This document shows positions 973 through 10,825 of a DNA stretch of 64,000 bases, one piece after another. Origin of the DNA: Bowmanella denitrificans. GTDB taxonomy: Bacteria; Pseudomonadota; Gammaproteobacteria; Enterobacterales; Alteromonadaceae. How positions within the stretch are numbered: the first letter of the stretch is position 1; each line of letters begins with the position of its first letter. The position numbers and the translations under genes are program-made. A model generated the notes under the pieces. That model searched no databases. It was not told where the DNA came from and saw only the letters and a program-made list of their open reading frames with translations. The stretch lies in assembly GCF_002887595.1 (NCBI RefSeq), contig NZ_PEBU01000004.1:310001-374000 (forward strand), in the 5' to 3' direction.

Positions 973-1588
973 ATCTTTGATATCCTGTTGCTTATAACGC
1001 GACAGTCTCACTTCATTGATTTTCCTTAAGTAAATGAGACTGAAAGACCAAATTTTCTCGAAAGATTTTGGGCAGCTTTATGCTGGTGCGGCAGAAAAGC
1101 CGCTGGGAGGTGGCATCAAGGGGCCTAGCTGGATCTCAACGTCAGTCCAGCGCAAAGTCGGTTGCCGATACGACGTACCCTACGCGTCTCCCACTCAACC
1201 CTATCCCAGCAAGTTACCAGTCTTTTAGTAGCCCCGGAATCGATTGGAAACATCAAGCGGAGTCAAAGTGTCTTAAATCATTTCAGAGAGAGTTTCAGTC
1301 GCGCCAACACTTCACACTCTGTCCATAAATACTATGTTCTAAAAGTTCCAATAACCTCATAACCACCTCTCAATAGATAAATTTACTTTGCAGACATGCG
1401 ACTATGAACGCTTGAAATTAGATGACTGAGGTAAGGCGGCTCGCTACACAATGATGAAGTTATTCTTATATTTTAGTGAGAGAAAATCAATCGGTACGAC
1501 ACTTTCTCCAGAATGTATCATGTTCTATTGATGCATTCCGGAAAAAGTAGTCATTATTTTAGTAAGCAGTCATTATTGAGGTGTTGAT
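973..1588. other. Gene-poor stretch with an operator-like palindrome
   Basis: Only short ORFs without recognisable protein features occur between the kinase and the zinc-ribbon gene. Close to the next gene there is a near-perfect inverted repeat (GAATGTATCA at 1511-1520 against TGATGCATTC at 1529-1538, one mismatch). Two direct copies of AGTCATTATT follow, at about 1549 and 1568. This could be the promoter and operator of the methyltransferase module. No RNA gene was recognised. Confidence 0.4.
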
Positions 1589-1870
1589 ATGGGTTGTAAA
1601 TGTTGTGGAAGGAAATTAAATGTTGGTATGATTCACAAAGTTGATGTAAACACAGGACAGAAATTTAAGTCCTGTCCGCACTGTTCTGATGCTAATGGTA
1701 GTGAACATGTTTTTCACCCTTATCCTGCGGCATTCGGTAAAACTCCCGCACGAAAGACGGCTAGAAACCCTGAAGGGTTTCAAAGCTATTGTTATGACTG
1801 CAGAAGCTTACCGAAAGGTGTCACTTCTCGTGCACATGTGAATGGAAAGTTTTGTAGTAGTTTAGATTAG
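1589..1870 (+). CDS. Small cysteine-rich zinc-ribbon-like protein
   Basis: 93 residues with cysteines at 3, 5, 6, 29, 32, 68, 71 and 89. The pairs C29-x2-C32 and C68-x2-C71 look like metal knuckles. The segment with FGKTPARKTARNPEGF followed by C-x2-C resembles the zinc ribbon that precedes many phage-type HNH domains, but no HNH catalytic motif is present. GAGG lies 8-11 bases before the ATG. Only 7 bases separate its stop from the DNA methyltransferase start, so the two are probably co-translated. It may be a DNA-binding accessory of the methyltransferase; its function is unknown. Confidence 0.7.
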   Translation: MGCKCCGRKLNVGMIHKVDVNTGQKFKSCPHCSDANGSEHVFHPYPAAFGKTPARKTARNPEGFQSYCYDCRSLPKGVTSRAHVNGKFCSSLD

Positions 1871-1877
1871 GTTTTGA

Positions 1878-2552
1878 ATGAATATTTTTCGAGATGATGC
1901 CGTCTCATGGTTATCTACGCTGGCTGATTCCAGCGTAGACCTTATTATCACTGACCCCCCTTATGAGTCATTAGAGAAGCATCGAAAAATTGGTACGACA
2001 ACAAGATTGAAAATTAGTAAGAGCTCTAATAATCAGTGGTTTGAAATTTTCCCTAATCATCGATTTGAAGTCTTTCTTAAAGAAATATATCGCGTACTAA
2101 AAAGGAACTCACATTTCTATATTTTTTGTGATCAGGAAACAATGTTTGTCCTCAAGCCTATAGCAGAAAAGATAGGGTTTAAATTCTGGAAGCCTATTGT
2201 ATGGGATAAAGTGAGTATTGGAATGGGATATCACTATAGGGCAAGGTATGAGTTCATTCTTTTCTTTGAAAAAGGAAAAAGAAAATTAAAAGATCTTAGT
2301 GTTCCAGATATATTGGAGTCAAAAAGAGTTTACAGAGGATATCCTACAGAAAAACCCGTAGAGTTATTGGAAATTTTGATTTCACAAAGTTCAGAATCAG
2401 GTGAAATTGTGGTTGACCCATTTTTTGGCTCTGGCTCTACTTTGATCGCCGCTCAAAACCTTGGAAGAATAGCTTATGGGTGCGATAAATCTTCACTGGC
2501 TCATGATTTTCTTGCTGAAAGGCTATTAAAATTGATGCCAATTGTTCAATAA
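1878..2552 (+). CDS. Site-specific DNA methyltransferase (N4-cytosine/N6-adenine type), orphan
   Basis: 224 residues. The catalytic motif DPPY is at 26-29 and the SAM-binding motif DPFFGSGST at 180-188; DPPY first and FGSGST last is the beta-class order. YPTEKPVELLE sits shortly before the SAM motif, as in phage and type II enzymes. The protein is short, leaving little room for a target-recognition domain. No restriction endonuclease gene is adjacent, so it is an orphan here, preceded by the 93-residue cysteine-rich protein. Base composition is clearly more AT-rich than the flanking housekeeping genes, consistent with transfer. The modified base and target are not predictable from this sequence. 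Confidence 0.88.
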   Translation: MNIFRDDAVSWLSTLADSSVDLIITDPPYESLEKHRKIGTTTRLKISKSSNNQWFEIFPNHRFEVFLKEIYRVLKRNSHFYIFCDQETMFVLKPIAEKIGFKFWKPIVWDKVSIGMGYHYRARYEFILFFEKGKRKLKDLSVPDILESKRVYRGYPTEKPVELLEILISQSSESGEIVVDPFFGSGSTLIAAQNLGRIAYGCDKSSLAHDFLAERLLKLMPIVQ

Positions 2553-2913
2553 CGATAGGCCATAGCAGGTAGGCTTCTGCTTATCAGGGGCAGGGTCATT
2601 GATATTGGTAACTGGTGAGCTTGGCCAAAGCTTTGAGCAAAGTGGCTTGGGCCGCTTAAGGGGTGCATAGATCTATTTAACAATTAATTGGGCCATGTAC
2701 GAACAACCAACTTTTGGCTGTAGCAAGTGCGAGGATTTTGGCGCATATGTCACTTTGTGATAACGGATTTAAGCTGTGTTAGTAAAGTTTCAGATATGGA
2801 GCGGTAGAACGGCAAAGGTACTGAACATCGCAGCTTCGCCGTCTAATAATATTGTTAGCCGGTCAAGGCAGCTTAAGCGCACATCATTAAAAACCAATAA
2901 ATGAGGATATGAC
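2553..2913. other. Intergenic region ending in a cassette-boundary-like site
   Basis: No gene is visible. GTTAGCC at 2854-2860, 54 bases before the deiminase start, is the exact reverse complement of GGCTAAC at 4856-4862 just after that gene. This looks like the R' end of an attC recombination site. ATTTAAC at 2675-2681 fits the R'' consensus, but the 170 bases between it and 2854 do not form a convincing attC hairpin. The stretch probably also holds the deiminase promoter. Confidence 0.4.
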
Positions 2914-4851
2914 ATGGAATCTAACCACTTTCTCTCACGCGGTGAGAGTGTACGAGTCAACTTTAACATCCAGTCGGGGTCTTTGATTCTCGAAAGTTTG
3001 CATGGACTTAAGATATTTCACGTTGAAAGCAACGCATGGAAAGAATTTATTATTAATACGCCAGTTCAAGCCCCTCTCCCGTATGAAGGTTTGGTTCGAA
3101 TTCAAGCGCTAGAGGCTGGTAAGAGCAAAGCCACGCTGATCCATGTTAATACTGACGGAGATGAAATAGATAGAATTGAAGTCAATGTCGATGTTTGCAG
3201 GGTTTCTATAAGGAATGATAGTGATCGCGATGGGGATATAGATTTAATTGACACAGGAAATGATAGTTGGGTGTGGGGTAACAACCAAAGAGGTGCAATA
3301 GCCCTAGTAAATAATGATCTAGAAATCAACGAACATGACCCGTCAGGTAGCTACTATTCAGAATGGTCTAAATTAATAGTAGAAGATACGCTACTTGATG
3401 AGTTTCCTCAGGATGTATTTCTGACTCTGGCAACAACTGAGGGTGCCGCCTCAAGGTTTACGGTTTATGCCAAATCAAGTAATGGGGATTATGAAAGGAT
3501 TTTAGGAGTAGACCCGTCTGGAGAAAATGAAACACTAATATACTCGCCTCCGCTTTCTACGAAAGGCCAAGACCTGTATCTAGAGGCACATGAATATCCC
3601 AGTGCAAACTTTGAAGGGTTGATCACATTAGAAATATTGTTGGTGAAAGGGCAGAACGTCATTTCAAGTGACTCTGTAGTTTATAGGGTTGCTCCATGGA
3701 TTATGACTCCCAACACACTCCCACCTGTTCGTGTATTTACGTGCAGGATTGTTAGTGGGGAAAATACAAATGAAAAGTTTTTAGAAAGTCTCACTGAAGC
3801 TTTAGATAATATCAATGTCCCTTTAACGATAATTGAGCCACAGGACCATCTTGGAGACAGGTGGATTCAAGATGAAATTGAGTTTGGTTATGTTCAAGGG
3901 GCTACACATGTGTTGCCAGTGGTTATGGATAGCCCGAGAGATCGAGGATTAGATGGATTTCCTGAAAAAGAGCTATTAGGTGAGGACTTTGGTCATTTTC
4001 AAGTCGGCGGGAGCGCTCCGAATTCTCTAGATTCATTTGGCAATTTAGAAGTTAGCCCACCAGTTTCAGTCAATGGAAGAAATTATCCTTTCGGCAGAAT
4101 TGTGTTTGGCGGCAAGAAATATGGAGATTATTCTGATTCTAATAGGCAAATGATGCCTCAATTAAGGAAATTTTTATATTCTCAAAAAGTCCAATCACCT
4201 TTCGAGGTGTATACAGATTGGTTAACGGTTGGGCATGTTGATGAAATTGTCTGCTTCGTTCCCGCTGTGAATGACATAGGTTTTCAGGTTCTAGTGGCAT
4301 CTCCAGGGAGAGCAAAAGCTATTTTAGAACGGCTGTCGCTTAATGGGTACGGAAGCGTCACCATGTTTGAGGGAATGAAGCGAGGTGAGCCAGGAAGCCC
4401 TGAATCTGCTGAAATCACTGTTGATGAACTGCTAAATGATGGAGTGTTTTGGCAGAATAATGACAATTATCAAAATATCATGGATACCAACATCTCAATC
4501 ATTAAACGTGAATTAGGGGTTGATGATGTTCATGTGGTACAGATACCCGTTCTTTTCCACCCTACTGGAGCCAACAGAACTGCAGCATATTTCCCTGACA
4601 TGGTAAATCACCTTGTCATCAACAATGTAAGCATAGTCCCAAAGCCACACGGGCCTATTATTGATGGTGAGTGTATATTCGAAAAAGCATTTAAGGATGC
4701 AGTTCCGGAACGAGATGTTGTGTTCATAGAGGATTGGTATTCTTATCATGAAATGCTTGGCGAGGTACATTGCGGTACAAACATTCAGCGCAAGCCATTT
4801 AATAATAAGACTTGGTGGTCATATAAGCCAGATGGTGGTTATGACATATAA
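2914..4851 (+). CDS. Protein-arginine deiminase, vertebrate-type
   Basis: 645 residues, close to the length of animal PADs (about 665), with no signal peptide. PADs convert peptidyl-arginine to citrulline and need calcium. The middle domain has the calcium-site segment DSDRDGDIDLID and GAIALVNND. The catalytic domain starts near YRVAPWIMTPNT and continues through DSFGNLEVSPP. Catalytic residues can be aligned to human PAD4: Asp320 in DRWIQDE (D350), His441 and Asp443 in VGHVDE (H471, D473) and Cys620 in EVHCGTN (C645). All are present, so an active enzyme is expected. GAGGAT precedes the ATG. The gene is flanked by matching GTTAGCC/GGCTAAC motifs and followed by an attC-like hairpin. Its target and benefit to a bacterium are unknown. 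Confidence 0.95.
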   Translation: MESNHFLSRGESVRVNFNIQSGSLILESLHGLKIFHVESNAWKEFIINTPVQAPLPYEGLVRIQALEAGKSKATLIHVNTDGDEIDRIEVNVDVCRVSIRNDSDRDGDIDLIDTGNDSWVWGNNQRGAIALVNNDLEINEHDPSGSYYSEWSKLIVEDTLLDEFPQDVFLTLATTEGAASRFTVYAKSSNGDYERILGVDPSGENETLIYSPPLSTKGQDLYLEAHEYPSANFEGLITLEILLVKGQNVISSDSVVYRVAPWIMTPNTLPPVRVFTCRIVSGENTNEKFLESLTEALDNINVPLTIIEPQDHLGDRWIQDEIEFGYVQGATHVLPVVMDSPRDRGLDGFPEKELLGEDFGHFQVGGSAPNSLDSFGNLEVSPPVSVNGRNYPFGRIVFGGKKYGDYSDSNRQMMPQLRKFLYSQKVQSPFEVYTDWLTVGHVDEIVCFVPAVNDIGFQVLVASPGRAKAILERLSLNGYGSVTMFEGMKRGEPGSPESAEITVDELLNDGVFWQNNDNYQNIMDTNISIIKRELGVDDVHVVQIPVLFHPTGANRTAAYFPDMVNHLVINNVSIVPKPHGPIIDGECIFEKAFKDAVPERDVVFIEDWYSYHEMLGEVHCGTNIQRKPFNNKTWWSYKPDGGYDI

Positions 4852-4855
4852 AATC

Positions 4856-4917
4856 GGCTAACAAAACCATCCACCGGACGCGCCAAAGGCGCGCGCCGGT
4901 GATGGTAAACGTGAGCC
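4856..4917 (+). other. Candidate attC-like recombination site
   Basis: GGCTAAC (4856-4862) and GTGAGCC (4911-4917) pair at 6 of 7 positions and enclose an extended imperfect hairpin. ACCATC and ACCGG pair with CCGGT and GATGGT, and CGCGCC pairs with GGCGCG around an AAA loop. A bulged C and a bulged A resemble the extrahelical bases of attC sites, and unpaired A-rich spacers follow both outer boxes. It starts 4 bases after the deiminase stop and runs in the same direction as the gene, as in integron cassettes. The G in place of the second T of the core GTT would be expected to impair recombination. A simple transcription terminator is the main alternative, although no T-run follows. Confidence 0.45.
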
Positions 4918-4959
4918 TGCAGAAAAAAATCGGAAGAATTTTTGAGCCAATAGCAGAAA

Positions 4960-5274
4960 CTAAATTCCAGTAAAAAGAAAATCCAGCGCGGAAATAATAT
5001 CGTCTCTGTTGAGCAGCAAGCTACCTTCTTTACTCTTTAAAAAAGATAATGAAACCGTTGTGATTTGATGGGTAAGCAATGCAAATGGCTGGTTATTGAT
5101 CTCAATAATTGGACAAAGGTTTTTCGGAAACGAGTTGGCATCCAGGGCTGGGGAAATCGGAATTACAACCCGGCTGTTAAGCTCTTCAAGCAGGCCGGTT
5201 TGTACGTCAACAAAATAGGGGTAGGTGTTTCGGCTAGCTGGATCTGTGTTGGCATATAAGTCGTATTGCTTCAT
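4960..5274 (-). CDS. ccdB: CcdB-family type II toxin
   Basis: 104 residues beginning MKQYDLYANTD, with YPYFVDVQTGLLE and the IPISP segment characteristic of CcdB. The C-terminus DIISALDFLFTGI matches the family end that contacts GyrA. CcdB toxins poison DNA gyrase. The ATG overlaps the antitoxin stop as ATGA, the usual ccdAB arrangement. Length and ends look complete, so the module may be active. It lies immediately behind the cassette-like deiminase and could stabilise the island. Confidence 0.9.
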   Translation of the reverse strand: MKQYDLYANTDPASRNTYPYFVDVQTGLLEELNSRVVIPISPALDANSFPKNLCPIIEINNQPFALLTHQITTVSLSFLKSKEGSLLLNRDDIISALDFLFTGI

Positions 5275-5519
5275 CAGAATCCACGATGCTTATCGGCAAA
5301 CAGGCCATTTGCTTCGGCTAAGGTATTACAGTTTTCAATCGCCTGCTTATTTTCAGCCTGCCATGCCCGCCGCTTGCTTTGTCTGACTTCTGCTTCCAAT
5401 GCCCGTTCCATTGTGGCAGACAGATTGACTTTTAAACTTTTGGCTTCAGCTAATAAGCTACTGTTTATGCTTAAGTTTGTTGCCTTTTTAGGGGCATCTT
5501 TATCAAATAATTCACGCAT
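5274..5519 (-). CDS. ccdA: CcdA-family antitoxin
   Basis: About 81 residues from the ATG at 5519, which has GAGG 8 bases upstream; a longer reading from 5576 is less likely. The N-terminal part (KKATNLSINSSLLAEAKSL) is a ribbon-helix-helix DNA-binding segment. The C-terminal part (RRAWQAENKQAIENCNTLAE) is the helical toxin-binding tail typical of CcdA. It should neutralise the downstream CcdB and autoregulate the pair. Confidence 0.88.
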   Translation of the reverse strand: MRELFDKDAPKKATNLSINSSLLAEAKSLKVNLSATMERALEAEVRQSKRRAWQAENKQAIENCNTLAEANGLFADKHRGF

Positions 5520-6130
5520 CGCCAGTGCCTCGCATAATAAATGCGTATAAATTATGCGCATGGTAGCAAGGGGCAATTAACTAGGCAAGGCTGAGCCCCC
5601 CCATGCACTTGTTTTGTTAATAGCTCTTGAGCCAACCAAGACCGTGATGCATAGATTTCAGTGTGCCCAAATGGAAACATGGCTTATCACAGAGAATGGT
5701 CTATTTAGGACTTAATTGTAGGTAGTTACTCGCTACTTTGCTCATAAACCACTGCATGCTCAGCCCTAAAGCCTCCATAGGATAAGTTACTTTTGAAATA
5801 GAGACTAAGTTAACTTTTGGTTAGAAATTAAAAATTTTCATTGACAGCGATGTCATTGGTGATTAGGTTAAAAAAACACCAGTGTTGATGGGTTGGATAT
5901 CACAACTCTCTATTGGTATGAAGTATGGTGGTTGGCTTCTAGAGCCTATCATTTTATGGCTAGGGCAGGCTGATAGTAATCAGTTCGTTTATTTTATGCC
6001 CATCTCTAAATGTAACAATTCTACTGAATAGATTCTAATTCTCTACAACCTGAAAAATGCAAGACATTTGTCTGCAGGATTAGCAACGACAAAGTTGATA
6101 CGTAAATATAAAGTTTGTTTGAGGGAAGCA
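5520..6130. other. AT-rich intergenic stretch, nothing recognised
   Basis: About 600 bases between the ccdAB promoter side and the PEP-CTERM-like gene. No ORF with coding character, no tRNA-like fold and no clear repeat was seen. It must hold the divergent promoters of ccdA and the next gene. The AT-rich composition continues the accessory island. Confidence 0.4.
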
Positions 6131-6811
6131 ATGATGAATTCAATAAAGAAAATCTCCTTTGCATTAACAGCGTTTGTTTCATTAAGTACACATGCAGCAA
6201 TAATCCAACATACCAATGTTCAGTCATTCTACGATACAGTTGGCAGCGGAGTGATTGAACAAAATTTCGAAAGTTATGCTTCTGGTAGTTTATTGCCCAA
6301 TGGAGCAGCAATTGGAGATTATGAGCTCCACCATAGTATGACTAGTTTTGAGTTAGTTGTTGAAAATGTTTGGGATACATCATCAGGCGGTAACTATTTA
6401 GGAACAACAGATGGTGGTGTTTTTCAAGATTTGTTTGGTGTTCTAGAGTTTAGTTTTTTTGAGCCCATTGATGCATTTAGTATTTTCCTCAGTATGTCTG
6501 ACTATCCATGGCCAGGCGAGTGGTTCTTGTCTGTTAATGGTATATCGTATGGGTTAGATCCTGCATCCGTTATTCAACAATATTCTGATGGAGGATATGG
6601 CGTTCATTTGTCAATAACAGCAAGTGCTGGGGATTCATTCAAACAAGTCTCGCTTCGCACGGTAAACGATGGTCAAAATAATGGAAATGCGGTTGTTGAG
6701 AAAACAAAACACCGGATCGCCGTCAACATATCTGAACCCGGTAATGTATTTGTAATCGGTATCGGCCTGATCCTATTGATGACCAGGTATCGCAGTTTAT
6801 TTGAAAGATAA
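6131..6811 (+). CDS. PEP-CTERM-like exported protein
   Basis: 226 residues from the ATG at 6131, chosen because GAGGGA lies just before it. It has a signal peptide (KKISFALTAFVSLSTHAA). The body begins with IEQNFESYASG, a motif common at the start of PEP-CTERM proteins. The C-terminus has EPG, a hydrophobic stretch (VFVIGIGLILLMT) and a basic end RYRSLFER, the three-part PEP-CTERM sorting signal. The usual first proline of PEP is serine here. Such proteins are processed by exosortase and placed at the surface or in exopolysaccharide; no exosortase gene is in the window. Low GC indicates accessory origin. Confidence 0.7.
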   Translation: MMNSIKKISFALTAFVSLSTHAAIIQHTNVQSFYDTVGSGVIEQNFESYASGSLLPNGAAIGDYELHHSMTSFELVVENVWDTSSGGNYLGTTDGGVFQDLFGVLEFSFFEPIDAFSIFLSMSDYPWPGEWFLSVNGISYGLDPASVIQQYSDGGYGVHLSITASAGDSFKQVSLRTVNDGQNNGNAVVEKTKHRIAVNISEPGNVFVIGIGLILLMTRYRSLFER

Positions 6812-6870
6812 AATTCTGTTTGAAAATATCGACACTTAAATTTCTATATGTCTTACTTAAGGGAAATAAT

Positions 6871-7374
6871 ATGAAGAAGGCAATATTAATAGCGACATTG
6901 CTGCTGGGCCATGTTTCAGTTTCTGATTTGGTAAATGCACAAGAACGCCCCAGTGTTCAGGGGAATTACGATAAAATCAATGCTCTTACAGATAGACTTG
7001 ATGCTCTTGAGCACCAAGTTACTCAGATGCAAGACATTGTTGACAACGTAGCTATTGGGGGGCCAAGAACTTGGAGTGATGTTACCGCTTTACGAAACTG
7101 GAATGTAGAATATACCAACGATACCCTTGGTGATATGGTTGTAGCCATACTTGTCAGTCAAAATGGATGCTGTGAGGGGCAGGATGTTGTTTATTTTGAG
7201 GTAAGGGATCCTAGTAACAGTAGTTATCAAAGATTGTCTCACGCAAAGGTATCGAGACGATTTAATGAGCAAGGTGATTCTTTGATTGGTGTAGTACCAG
7301 CAGGGTACTACTACAGACTGCTCAGAGCGACGTCCCGCGCTAGTCTTGATAAATGGCATGAGTTAAGTCACTAA
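6871..7374 (+). CDS. Small exported protein of unknown function
   Basis: 167 residues from the ATG at 6871, with AAGGGA upstream; longer readings lack a signal peptide. It has an N-terminal signal sequence (KKAILIATLLLGHVSVSDL) and a short coiled-coil-like helix (KINALTDRLDALEHQVTQMQ). A beta-rich C-terminal part follows with a Cys-Cys pair (NGCCEGQD). It lies 59 bases after the PEP-CTERM-like gene and is followed by a strong terminator, so the two may form one transcript. No family was recognised. Confidence 0.65.
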   Translation: MKKAILIATLLLGHVSVSDLVNAQERPSVQGNYDKINALTDRLDALEHQVTQMQDIVDNVAIGGPRTWSDVTALRNWNVEYTNDTLGDMVVAILVSQNGCCEGQDVVYFEVRDPSNSSYQRLSHAKVSRRFNEQGDSLIGVVPAGYYYRLLRATSRASLDKWHELSH

Positions 7375-7518: not shown

Positions 7519-8484
7519 CTACTTCACTTCTTCCCCGGCAGCCTGGCGGTCAGCATGGTAGCTGGAGCGTACCATTGGGCCACAGGCGGCGTGGCTGAAG
7601 CCAAGCTCGTAGGCGGTGTCGCGCAGGGCGTCAAATTCACTGGGGTGCACGTAGCGTTTCACCGGGAAATGGTGGCGGCTGGGTTGCAGATACTGGCCGA
7701 GGGTCAGCATATCGACGTTATGCTCACGTAGGTCTTTCAGAACCTCGGCCATTTCCTGCTGGTCTTCGCCCATGCCCATCATCAGGCCGGATTTGGTCAT
7801 AATCTCTGGGTGCTGCTCTTTAAACTTACGCAGCAACTCCAGTGACCATTTGTAGTTAGCGCCCGGGCGGCATTCACGGTACAAGCGTGGAATGGTTTCC
7901 AGGTTGTGGTTAAACACATCGGGTACGCCGTTTTTAAAGATTTCCAGCGCGGTGTCCATACGGCCGCGGAAGTCCGGCACCAGTACTTCAATTTTGGTGC
8001 TGGGGCTGTGTTTGCGGATGGCGTTAATACAGTCAACAAAGTGCTGGGCACCGCCGTCTCGCAGATCGTCGCGGTCTACCGAGGTGATCACCACGTATTT
8101 CAGCTTCATTTCGGCAATCGTGGTGGCCAGCTTTTCCGGCTCTTCGGCACTGGGTGGCAGTGGTTTACCATGGGCTACGTCGCAGAATGGGCAACGGCGG
8201 GTACAGATGTCGCCAAGGATCATAAAGGTGGCGGTACCGTGGGTAAAACACTCAGACAGGTTAGGGCAACTGGCTTCTTCACAGACCGAGTGCAGGTTGT
8301 TCTTGCGCATAATGTTTTTTATGCGGTCGATCCCTTCGGTACTGGAAGGCAACTTGATTTTGATCCAGTCGGGCTTGCGCAGCATCTGCTCCCGCTCGGT
8401 GGGGATGATGGTGACAGGGATATGTTTCATTTTGTCTTCGTCGCGCAGTTTTACACCTGCTTCGACACGTACTGCTTTAGTCAT
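7519..8484 (-). CDS. lipA: Lipoyl synthase
   Basis: 321 residues from the ATG at 8484, the same length as E. coli LipA. Radical-SAM enzyme that inserts two sulfurs into octanoyl-lipoyl domains of 2-oxoacid dehydrogenases and GcvH. The auxiliary cluster cysteines are C68, C73 and C79 and the SAM-cluster cysteines C94, C98 and C101 (CTRRCPFC), identical in numbering to E. coli, which fixes the start. The C-terminal RSSYHAD motif supplies the conserved serine ligand. The start overlaps the end of lipB by 8 bases; the order ybeD-lipB-lipA indicates one operon. Confidence 0.98.
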
Positions 8485-9127
8485 CAAAACCTTCCCGATA
8501 GTCTGTCTGTTCAATCTTGATTAGCCGGCAAAATGCCTGGCTTAACAACTTACCTGCCTCTGGCAGATTGTCCGGCCCGCCGAGTTGCGCGCAGTGTATC
8601 ATTTCCAACCCGGCATAGCCGCATGGATTTATACGCTGAAACGGCCCCAGATCCATATTGATATTTAGCGCCAGGCCGTGAAATGAGCAGCCCTTGCGAA
8701 TGCGCAGGCCCACGGAGCAAATTTTACGCCCGTCTACATATACCCCTGGGGCATCGGCCTTGGGGTAGGCGTTTACACCATAAGGTTTTAGCAATTCCAC
8801 CACGGATTGTTCCAGCGCGGTTACCAGATCGCGCACGCCGATTTTCAGGCGTTTGAGATTCAGTAGTACATACATCATTTGCTGGCCGGGGCCGTGATAG
8901 GTAACCTGGCCGCCGCGGTCTACTTTTACCACCGGAATATCGCCGGGAGCCAATAGATGTTCTTCCTTACCGGCCTGGCCCTGGGTAAACACCGCGTTAT
9001 GTTCAACCAGCCAGATTTCATCCTGCTGCTCGACACCGCGTTGGTCGGTAAAGTTTTGCATGGCATGCCAGATGGGCGCGTAGTCCTGGCGCCCCAACTG
9101 ACGAATAATCAGGCTTGGCGTACTCAC
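8477..9127 (-). CDS. lipB: Octanoyl-[ACP]:protein octanoyltransferase
   Basis: 216 residues. It transfers octanoyl from acyl carrier protein to lipoyl domains, the step before LipA. Catalytic Lys135 ([14 protein letters not shown]) and Cys169 (INPCGY) fall at the same numbers as in E. coli LipB. The motif [12 protein letters not shown] is present. It starts 3 bases after the ybeD stop and overlaps lipA. Confidence 0.98.
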
Positions 9128-9908: not shown

Positions 9909-10280
9909 TTATAGGACGAATCTTTTCAGGCCATCTTTTAGTTTCAGAGCGTTGAAATTTATCAATAAACCTTTCTTGATATTGGCCAGTCTCATGTAGG
10001 TAAGTAGTTGAGCTTTGTGAATGTCCTTGACCTGTTCAACGCTCTTAAGCTCAAGGATAAGCTTGTTATCTACCAACATGTCGATTCTGTACCCACAATC
10101 TAGACAAAAGCCTTTGTATTCGATCGGCAATTGATGTTGAAGCTTGAATTCTACGCCGTTTAAACGCAGTTCGTGAGCTAGGCATTGCTCATAGGTTGAT
10201 TCAAGCAAGCCAGGTCCGAGTTCCTTGTGTACTTCGATTGCGCAACCAATCACCTTGTTTGAAAGTGTTTCGAATTCCAT
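9909..10280 (-). CDS. GxxExxY protein (PD-(D/E)XK nuclease-like fold)
   Basis: 123 residues, the normal family length. The naming motif is GLLESTY within GPGLLESTYEQC. YRIDMLV followed by ELKSV provides the Asp...Glu-x-Lys arrangement of PD-(D/E)XK nucleases, so a DNA-cleaving or DNA-binding role is plausible but unproven. The start MEFETLSNKVIGCAIEVH is standard. The gene lies alone between two blocks of the same hairpin repeat (9631-9907 and 10362-10812), which suggests a functional link between the protein and the repeats. Confidence 0.92.
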   Translation of the reverse strand: MEFETLSNKVIGCAIEVHKELGPGLLESTYEQCLAHELRLNGVEFKLQHQLPIEYKGFCLDCGYRIDMLVDNKLILELKSVEQVKDIHKAQLLTYMRLANIKKGLLINFNALKLKDGLKRFVL

Positions 10281-10361: not shown

Positions 10362-10812
10362 GGCTTTCGTGGTGAGTAAAAAAACACCAATTAAACATCA
10401 AGAACACGAAGCACACGAAGGGCAGAAGTTATCTCCATGCCGACTCATTTCATCTTAGTGTTCGTGGTAAATGATAGATGCTTTTATAAACATGAGGGGC
10501 TCGAAGCACTTGATGGAATGTCGTTTTCTCTGTTTTAAGACGTCTTTTACTTCGTGTTCTTAGTGTCCTTCGTGGTGAGTAAAAAAACGCCAATTAAACC
10601 ACCAAGAGCACGAAGCACACGAAGGGCAGAAATTATCGCAATGCCGACTCATCTCATCATAGTGTTCTCTGCGCTCTTCGTGTTCTTAGTGTCCTTCGTG
10701 GTGAGTAAAAAAACACCAATTAAACACCAAGAGCACGAAGCACAGAATTTATCGCCATGCCGACTCATCTCATCATAGTGTTCTCTGTGCTCTTCGTGTT
10801 CTCTGTGGTTAG
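10362..10812. repeat. Right block of hairpin repeats (three units plus a partial)
   Basis: Units start near 10362, 10550 and 10676, with a truncated unit at 10792-10810. The last full units are spaced 126 and 116 bases. They share the arms, the CCAATTAAAC middle and the GCCGACTCATCTCATCATAG tail with the left block. The partial unit stops about 15 bases short of the stop codon of the glutamate synthase-like gene. Confidence 0.85.
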
Positions 10813-10825
10813 ATCACAAGGGCTA

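Follow-up and report, generated by a model that had tools for sequence, protein, structure and literature searches.

The window analysed here, a 64,000-nucleotide stretch of Bowmanella denitrificans DNA, carries an intact open reading frame of 645 codons that begins with ATG and encodes a protein-arginine deiminase (PAD) of the three-domain type (Table 1). The gene is single-copy in the genome and sits between a histidine-kinase gene (70-972) and lipA (7519-8514, - strand), with a DNA methyltransferase gene and a CcdA-CcdB toxin-antitoxin pair as neighbours; other genes lie there in the two congeners examined (G001 and G002). The locus is AT-rich, as the initial annotation had noted, with GC of 0.375-0.42 over positions 1001-7000 compared with 49.0% for the whole window. 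Between 2500 and 5000, a promoter scan yielded nothing (3 sites versus 6.3 expected), as did a search for terminator-like sites (one, on the minus strand, versus 2.0 expected). Two open reading frames between the ccd pair and lipA (6068-7374; 247 and 184 aa) have no Pfam match over the cut-off, and the 247-aa product has a hydrophobic stretch and a basic tail at its C-terminus, by eye like a PEP-CTERM protein. An open reading frame at 9909-10280 (-) belongs to the PD-(D/E)XK_3 nuclease superfamily (E=2.9e-44).

Table 1. Features of the PAD locus in the window, of a cassette array in the same genome (L033, contig C2) and of three Methanophagales loci (L004 to L006).
Feature	Locus	Position	Strand	Basis
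N6_N4-type DNA methyltransferase (neighbour)	window	1878..2552	+	PF01555 E=3.7e-38
26-nt junction, same as entry of cassette array (L033 5535-5560)	window	2833..2858	+	sequence identity, ending inside GTTAG
GTTAGCC (R'), putative 5' cassette boundary	window	2854..2860	+	geometry and paired scans
GAGG, likely ribosome-binding site	window	2903..2906	+	direct reading; GAGG precedes both Vibrio copies too
Three-domain-type PAD, 645 aa	window	2914..4851	+	ORF, Pfam, PDB match, alignment, tree
Degenerate N-terminal PAD_N-like beta domain (predicted), about residues 1-95	window	2914..3198	+	profile and structural alignments
PAD_M calcium-binding middle domain, residues 96-244	window	3199..3645	+	Pfam PF08527; includes DSDRDGDID at 102-110
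PAD_C catalytic domain, residues 250-635	window	3661..4818	+	Pfam PF03068, alignment
VAPWIMTPNT linker, residues 259-268, marker of animal/cyanobacterial type	window	3688..3717	+	alignment; available text of PMC8826395
Catalytic codons Asp320, His441, Asp443, Cys620	window	3871-3873, 4234-4236, 4240-4242, 4771-4773	+	alignment
attC-type site	window	4856..4917	+	GGCTAAC (R''), 9-nt spacer, CACCGG, unpaired base, hairpin, CCGGTG, 9-nt spacer, GTGAGCC (R')
CcdA-CcdB toxin-antitoxin pair (neighbour)	window	4960..5576	-	Pfam CcdB 2.4e-28, CcdA 2.3e-27
Cassette 1, exact R'/R'' pair around 140-aa ORF	L033	GTTAGGA 5556 / TCCTAAC 5971	+	exact string
Cassette 2, exact pair around 866-aa AAA-domain protein	L033	GTTATAC 6051 / GTATAAC 8670		paired scan
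Next box, then third ORF	L033	GTTATGC 8719		
Transglutaminase; PAD frame	L004	4623-5675; 5938-7929	same	
Transglutaminase; PAD	L005	350-1303; 1692-3644	same	
Transglutaminase; PAD	L006	3642-4694; 5003-6955	same	assignment rests on G334 coordinates and ORF

In line with the initial proposal of horizontal transfer, the PAD gene looks horizontally acquired because it is absent from all 58 other related genomes (four congeners among them), has an atypical composition (4-mer distance rank 5 of 126 in the window) and occupies a lipA-adjacent spot that differs in the two congeners. At the nucleotide level the gene is 79.3% identical to its counterpart in Vibrio amylolyticus, which falls within the 79-87% identity of the lipA region between congeners, the yardstick used here. 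The PAD gene is under purifying selection, with dN 0.079 and dS 1.74 (NG86) or 0.070 and 2.58 (YN00) between the window and V. amylolyticus copies. In the vibrios, plasmid-type functions are found close to the gene: Replicase/PriCT, RadC and a group II intron in V. amylolyticus, where a transglycosylase SLT domain is also encoded nearby, and TrwC/TraI in V. ouci.

The ends of the gene suggest how it may have travelled. Downstream of the PAD reading frame lies an imperfect hairpin of attC type with R'', L'', L' and R' boxes, and its GGCTAAC box at 4856, 4 nt past the stop codon, is the exact complement of the GTTAGCC box that lies 53 nt before the start. The 26-nt junction upstream is the same as the entry of a clear cassette array on contig C2 of this genome (~291.5-295.1 kb; L033 5535-9124), and the two sequences part directly after GTTAG, close to where crossover is expected. 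For scanning we used an attC geometry that we take to be that of aadA-type 59-base elements. Applied to 398,091 bases, overlapping loci included, with 0.32 sites expected per 64 kb on both strands, this hairpin rule returned 14 rows at about seven distinct places. Five rows are the PAD site, counted again wherever loci overlap; the remaining rows were taken as chance except L033 8670-8725, and the rule alone is weak evidence. A paired rule, with a null of 0.1 per 64-kb strand (10 shuffles), was run on the window, on L033 and on two Vibrio loci (L002 and L003). It gave three rows at two sites in the window, where a further GTTAGCC, at 4051 within the gene, is a second partner for the PAD attC; the other site, 54903/56128, has two mismatches and looks like chance. 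The four rows in L033 were 6051/8670, two opposite-strand readings of the 8719 and 5556/5971 boxes, and 3451/3724, which was taken as chance. Two rows in L002 with one common R'' on the minus strand were likewise taken as chance, and L003 gave no rows. The hairpin geometry scan passed no site in L004-L006, nor any past the PAD gene in the two Vibrio loci. In the window no GGCTCAC follows position 4900 to close CcdA-CcdB as a cassette.

Two repeats upstream of the gene (1032-1274 and 2586-2858) were considered as attC arrays and rejected, being dispersed repeats that occur in either orientation and, in L032, between ordinary-looking open reading frames; only the last 26 nt of the second (2833-2858) coincide with the cassette junction. 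Both belong to one dispersed repeat, of which the genome has many copies and congeners a few; in some copies the two pieces adjoin.

The likely vehicle of the PAD gene, judging from these boundaries, is an integron gene cassette. The element is best called CALIN-type because the genome holds no integron integrase over the cut-off (best TIGR02249 match 76.5 bits, cut-off 265); the sub-cut-off match was rejected, as such matches occur in 14 of 14 control genomes. In the available text of PMC8618304, CALIN elements are described as attC clusters without an integrase, and cassette exchange within one environment is illustrated by Vibrio. The PAD element resembles those cassettes in its single open reading frame with an attC-type site, its complementary R''/R' boxes and the absence of an integrase over the cut-off, and differs in being a lone cassette at its locus. 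It is unlikely that the hairpin is instead a chance inverted repeat or a terminator and that the gene came by another route. A chance origin would fit the lack of an integrase, a right end (GTGAGCC) that departs from GTTRRRY, the single occurrence of the full site in the genome, and plasmid records that offer seven short partial matches to the attC region, none annotated as attC or integron; it would also fit the fact that, elsewhere in the window, the hairpin rule passes 10719-10814 (-) and the paired rule 54903/56128. Chance does not readily account for exact 7-nt complements flanking the gene, for equal 9-nt spacers or for an upstream junction common to an array with two exact R'/R'' pairs, and a terminator is disfavoured by direct reading of the + strand, on which no T-run follows the hairpin.

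Turning from the cassette to its cargo, Pfam matches both PAD (PF03068, E=3.6e-127) and PAD_M (PF08527, E=3.2e-17) in the encoded protein, whereas a search of NCBIfam at E 0.01 matches no family. All 27 sequences matched in a PDB search are PADs, with PAD1 as the best chain (E=9.9e-113). Among the 50 chains listed by Foldseek for the structural model, 49 are named PAD and the remaining one (9xrl_T) belongs to the mouse cytoplasmic lattice, a structure that contains PAD6. The initial annotation described the protein as full-length, which needs qualifying for the N-terminal domain. This domain is predicted to be degenerate because Pfam PAD_N is unmatched in all eight members of the clade described below. 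A trace of the domain may persist, in that positions 24-92 of profile A1 align to about 61-135 in the N-terminal region of PAD1, structural alignments begin at model residue 1 (PAD residue 10-18), and the N-terminal blocks of the model consist of strands only (mean pLDDT 63-87); the hhalign probability, however, is 32%. The model is poor overall (mean pLDDT 56.0, pTM 0.41), as are the N-terminal 120 residues folded alone (mean pLDDT 52.3).

The residues expected for catalysis are in place. Asp320, His441, Asp443 and Cys620 align with Asp350, His471, Asp473 and Cys645 of PAD4, so that all four catalytic positions are kept, as first claimed, although the numbers then quoted as those of PAD4 are the window protein's own. 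The segments singled out at the same time are also found, DSDRDGDID and VAPWIMTPNT in the domains given in Table 1 and DSFGNLEVSPP at residues 373-383. We compared calcium sites using residue lists that we take to be those of PAD4 in its own numbering; the switch residue and the linker come from PMC8826395 instead. The window PAD is identical to PAD4 at five of five Ca1 positions and at three of four Ca2 positions, Asn373 being replaced by Asp, and the Glu, Asp and Ser of Ca2 are found in 8/8 clade members. The calcium-switch Asp (PADI2 Asp389) is present in the window PAD and throughout the eight. The Ca3-5 loop differs in the MAFFT alignment, with Asp157 replaced by Glu, Asp165 by Gly, Asp168 by Tyr and Asp179 by Glu, and with Glu170 and Asp176 aligned to gaps. 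Part of the calcium network may therefore be altered, and calcium affinity may differ. The switch residue and the linker region serve as markers in the available text of PMC8826395, which also reports that the Cyanothece enzyme is active and strictly calcium-dependent.

Conserved residues, together with this reported activity of the cyanobacterial enzyme (cyanoPADI), point to catalysis under calcium control. In such a scheme, calcium bound in the middle domain and at Ca1 and Ca2 of the catalytic domain would order the active site. Asp320 and Asp443 would hold a protein arginine, whose guanidinium Cys620 would attack while His441 served as acid/base; ammonia would be released, leaving citrulline. 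Because cells normally keep little free calcium in the cytosol, the enzyme would stay inactive until an influx occurred, for example on envelope damage, and could act as a damage-triggered cytosolic switch fired by calcium entry. We infer the activity of the window protein, its calcium control and targets, and movement of its gene by an integron integrase. Taken together, we consider it probable that the locus encodes a soluble, probably cytosolic PAD of the three-domain type, predicted to be calcium-dependent, that arrived as an integron cassette of ~2.06 kb (2855-4911).

A different site of action, in which the PAD is exported or injected and modifies the proteins of other cells instead of home proteins, is improbable. 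Porphyromonas uses its own deiminase in this way, some Streptomyces copies have an apparent signal peptide on direct reading, and both Vibrio copies have genes of conjugation type in their surroundings (TrwC/TraI for V. ouci, transglycosylase SLT and Replicase for V. amylolyticus). By the same direct reading of the sequence, as opposed to a predictor, a secretion signal is not apparent at the N-terminus of the window protein, nor in the Vibrio and Methanophagales copies, and Pfam scans of the neighbouring genes named none for protein export.

Relatives of the window PAD were sought by a pattern scan of genome contigs, in which 7 of 20 stretches encoded a relative, none of them cyanobacterial. 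The copies in V. amylolyticus and V. ouci are 86% and 78% identical to the window protein, that of Paenibacillus amylolyticus 57%, three from Methanophagales 55-56% and that of Pseudorhodoferax 47%. The Paenibacillus frame (L007 5992-7596) begins mid-protein with no start codon nearby and looks truncated. Counting the seed genomes, a PAD occurs in 1/59 genomes related to the window genome and in 1/274 of its class, in both cases the genome itself, and in 2/398 of its phylum, the second being a two-domain-like copy (genome G1123); a third match in the phylum (E=6.6e-4) is below the cut-off. The corresponding frequencies are 2/227 for the genus group of V. amylolyticus, 3/58 for the class of Methanophagales and 1/398 (the seed) for the phylum of Paenibacillus. 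Four plasmid records carry a PAD (three Streptomyces and one Embleya), and the phages and viral contigs scanned carry none. The three-domain PAD is rare and patchy, forming one small clade across Vibrio, Paenibacillus, Pseudorhodoferax and Methanophagales. The window copy is therefore not an isolated oddity.

The archaeal copies bear on a published verdict. The available text of PMC8826395 placed one Methanophagales sequence (RCV64870.1) among cyanobacteria and judged it mis-binned, and two of the three assemblies share the name prefix CONS3730, so that their independence is perhaps incomplete. Cyanobacterial contamination is nonetheless a very unlikely source of these copies, which come from three assemblies and are 94-95% identical to each other as proteins. 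The PAD neighbours are FmdE, an rRNA adenine dimethylase and a dihydroorotate dehydrogenase fusion in L004, and PIN_9, EMC3/TMCO1 and a tRNA pseudouridine synthase domain in L005, genes that we take to be of archaeal character. GC content of the PAD genes is 43.5% in contigs of 42.2-43.6%, and their 4-mer distance ranks (20/25, 9/17 and 4/12) are ordinary, measured against short backgrounds of 7-14 kb that include the gene. In all three, a transglutaminase gene (PF20085; E=3.7e-98 in L004 and 1e-97 in L005) lies upstream of PAD on the same strand, and the L005 product matches the NCBIfam protein-glutamine gamma-glutamyltransferase over its cut-off. Across the 58 genomes of the class, this transglutaminase is found in 3/3 PAD-bearing genomes, on the PAD contigs, versus 0/55 others. 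PF20085 was not found in the window genome, both vibrios, Pseudorhodoferax or G1123, and Paenibacillus has two transglutaminase pieces on contigs other than that of PAD. A literature search on transglutaminase, peptidylarginine deiminase and archaea returned no report of the pairing, judged by title, and the available text of PMC9668308 on archaeal integrons has 0 mentions of Methanophagales, leaving a Methanophagales-integron link unsupported.

To place the window PAD among known enzymes, we built a tree of 15 sequences and 572 columns from the eight prokaryotic three-domain-type copies, human PAD1 and PAD4, and five other prokaryotic PADs, a set without cyanobacterial or fungal sequences. 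The eight prokaryotic copies form one clade (99.5/100), within which the window, V. amylolyticus and V. ouci sequences group at 100/100 and the branching among Methanophagales, Paenibacillus and Pseudorhodoferax has weak support (58-71 bootstrap). The eight together with the human PADs are split from the five other prokaryotic PADs at 97.7/99, and at 100 under Q.pfam+I+G4. Nothing suggests transfer from a vertebrate, as the prokaryotic sequences make up a separate clade next to the human PADs. Compared with human PAD1 and PAD4, the window PAD has an N-terminal domain predicted to be degenerate, an altered Ca3-5 loop and Asp in place of Asn373. The five comparators, two-domain PADs from three Streptomyces, one Embleya and one Pseudomonadota (L047), also have the four catalytic residues in 5/5, but are 25-31% identical to the eight, lack the APWIMTPNT linker and have Glu351 and Asp369 replaced in every case. 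RVAPWIMTPNT, the animal-type strand that connects PAD_M to PAD_C, is found in 8/8 clade members and is absent from 5/5 comparators, one of which (KN37) shows the triple histidine HHH. The calcium-switch Asp was considered as a separator of the two types and fails, as three of the five comparators have it. The closest description is that of cyanoPADI (Cyanothece sp. 8801 and SPM/NX-clade cyanobacteria), which, in the available text of PMC8826395, has PAD_M and PAD_C, a degenerate PAD_N, the animal-type linker and the calcium switch. The likeness is to that published description, and the window clade differs in its hosts, which are other bacteria and archaea, and the window copy in its putative cassette carrier. 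Pfam, alignment and tree agree with the initial placement of the protein with extended PADs and not with agmatine-deiminase-like families. That it is a free-arginine or agmatine deiminase-like enzyme of the Porphyromonas PPAD type merely resembling PADs is scarcely credible, as the PF04371 (PAD_porph) match to residues 538-623 (E=0.0047; 16.6 bits, cut-off 25) is ~125 orders of magnitude worse than that to PF03068, and the linker, middle domain, Ca1 and Ca2 residues and Foldseek matches of the window protein are those of PADs.

The animal-type PAD, as recognised by these sequence features, occurs outside animals and cyanobacteria, contrary to the published limits. In the available text of PMC8826395, three-domain PADs are limited to animals and late-branching cyanobacteria, and two other hits, one archaeal and one from Namao virus, were dismissed. 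Our literature search, which had subscription papers and preprints outside its scope, returned no further three-domain PADs beyond these groups and no report of a PAD on an integron cassette. That limited distribution underlies the published explanation of how animals acquired citrullination, and the copies in Vibrio, Paenibacillus, Pseudorhodoferax, the window genome and three archaeal assemblies challenge this premise. They also add new taxa to the phylogeny from which the donor of the animal PAD is judged. A cassette-borne copy is a plausible vehicle for the patchy distribution, and the presence of PADs in vibrios makes a prokaryotic role for citrullination testable there. A PAD/transglutaminase pair acts in vertebrate skin. 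It is interesting to speculate, as a possible but doubtful scenario, that three-domain PADs are an old mobile prokaryotic gene, moved between bacteria on integron cassettes and paired in Methanophagales with a transglutaminase as a module for deimination and cross-linking like that of vertebrate skin; the animal gene would then perhaps derive from a wider mobile pool and not from cyanobacteria specifically.

Two further loci are of interest in their own right. The Pseudomonadota comparator (L047, genome G1123) is an 804-codon frame whose product is a two-domain-type PAD (PF03068 E=2.5e-61), with MVARWIGNHHLQ at the linker. In Pseudorhodoferax (L008), a trypsin-like protease gene (4827-5942; Trypsin_2 E=1e-16) ends just before PAD, so that a possible arginine-cutting protease neighbours an enzyme that would remove the arginine charge.
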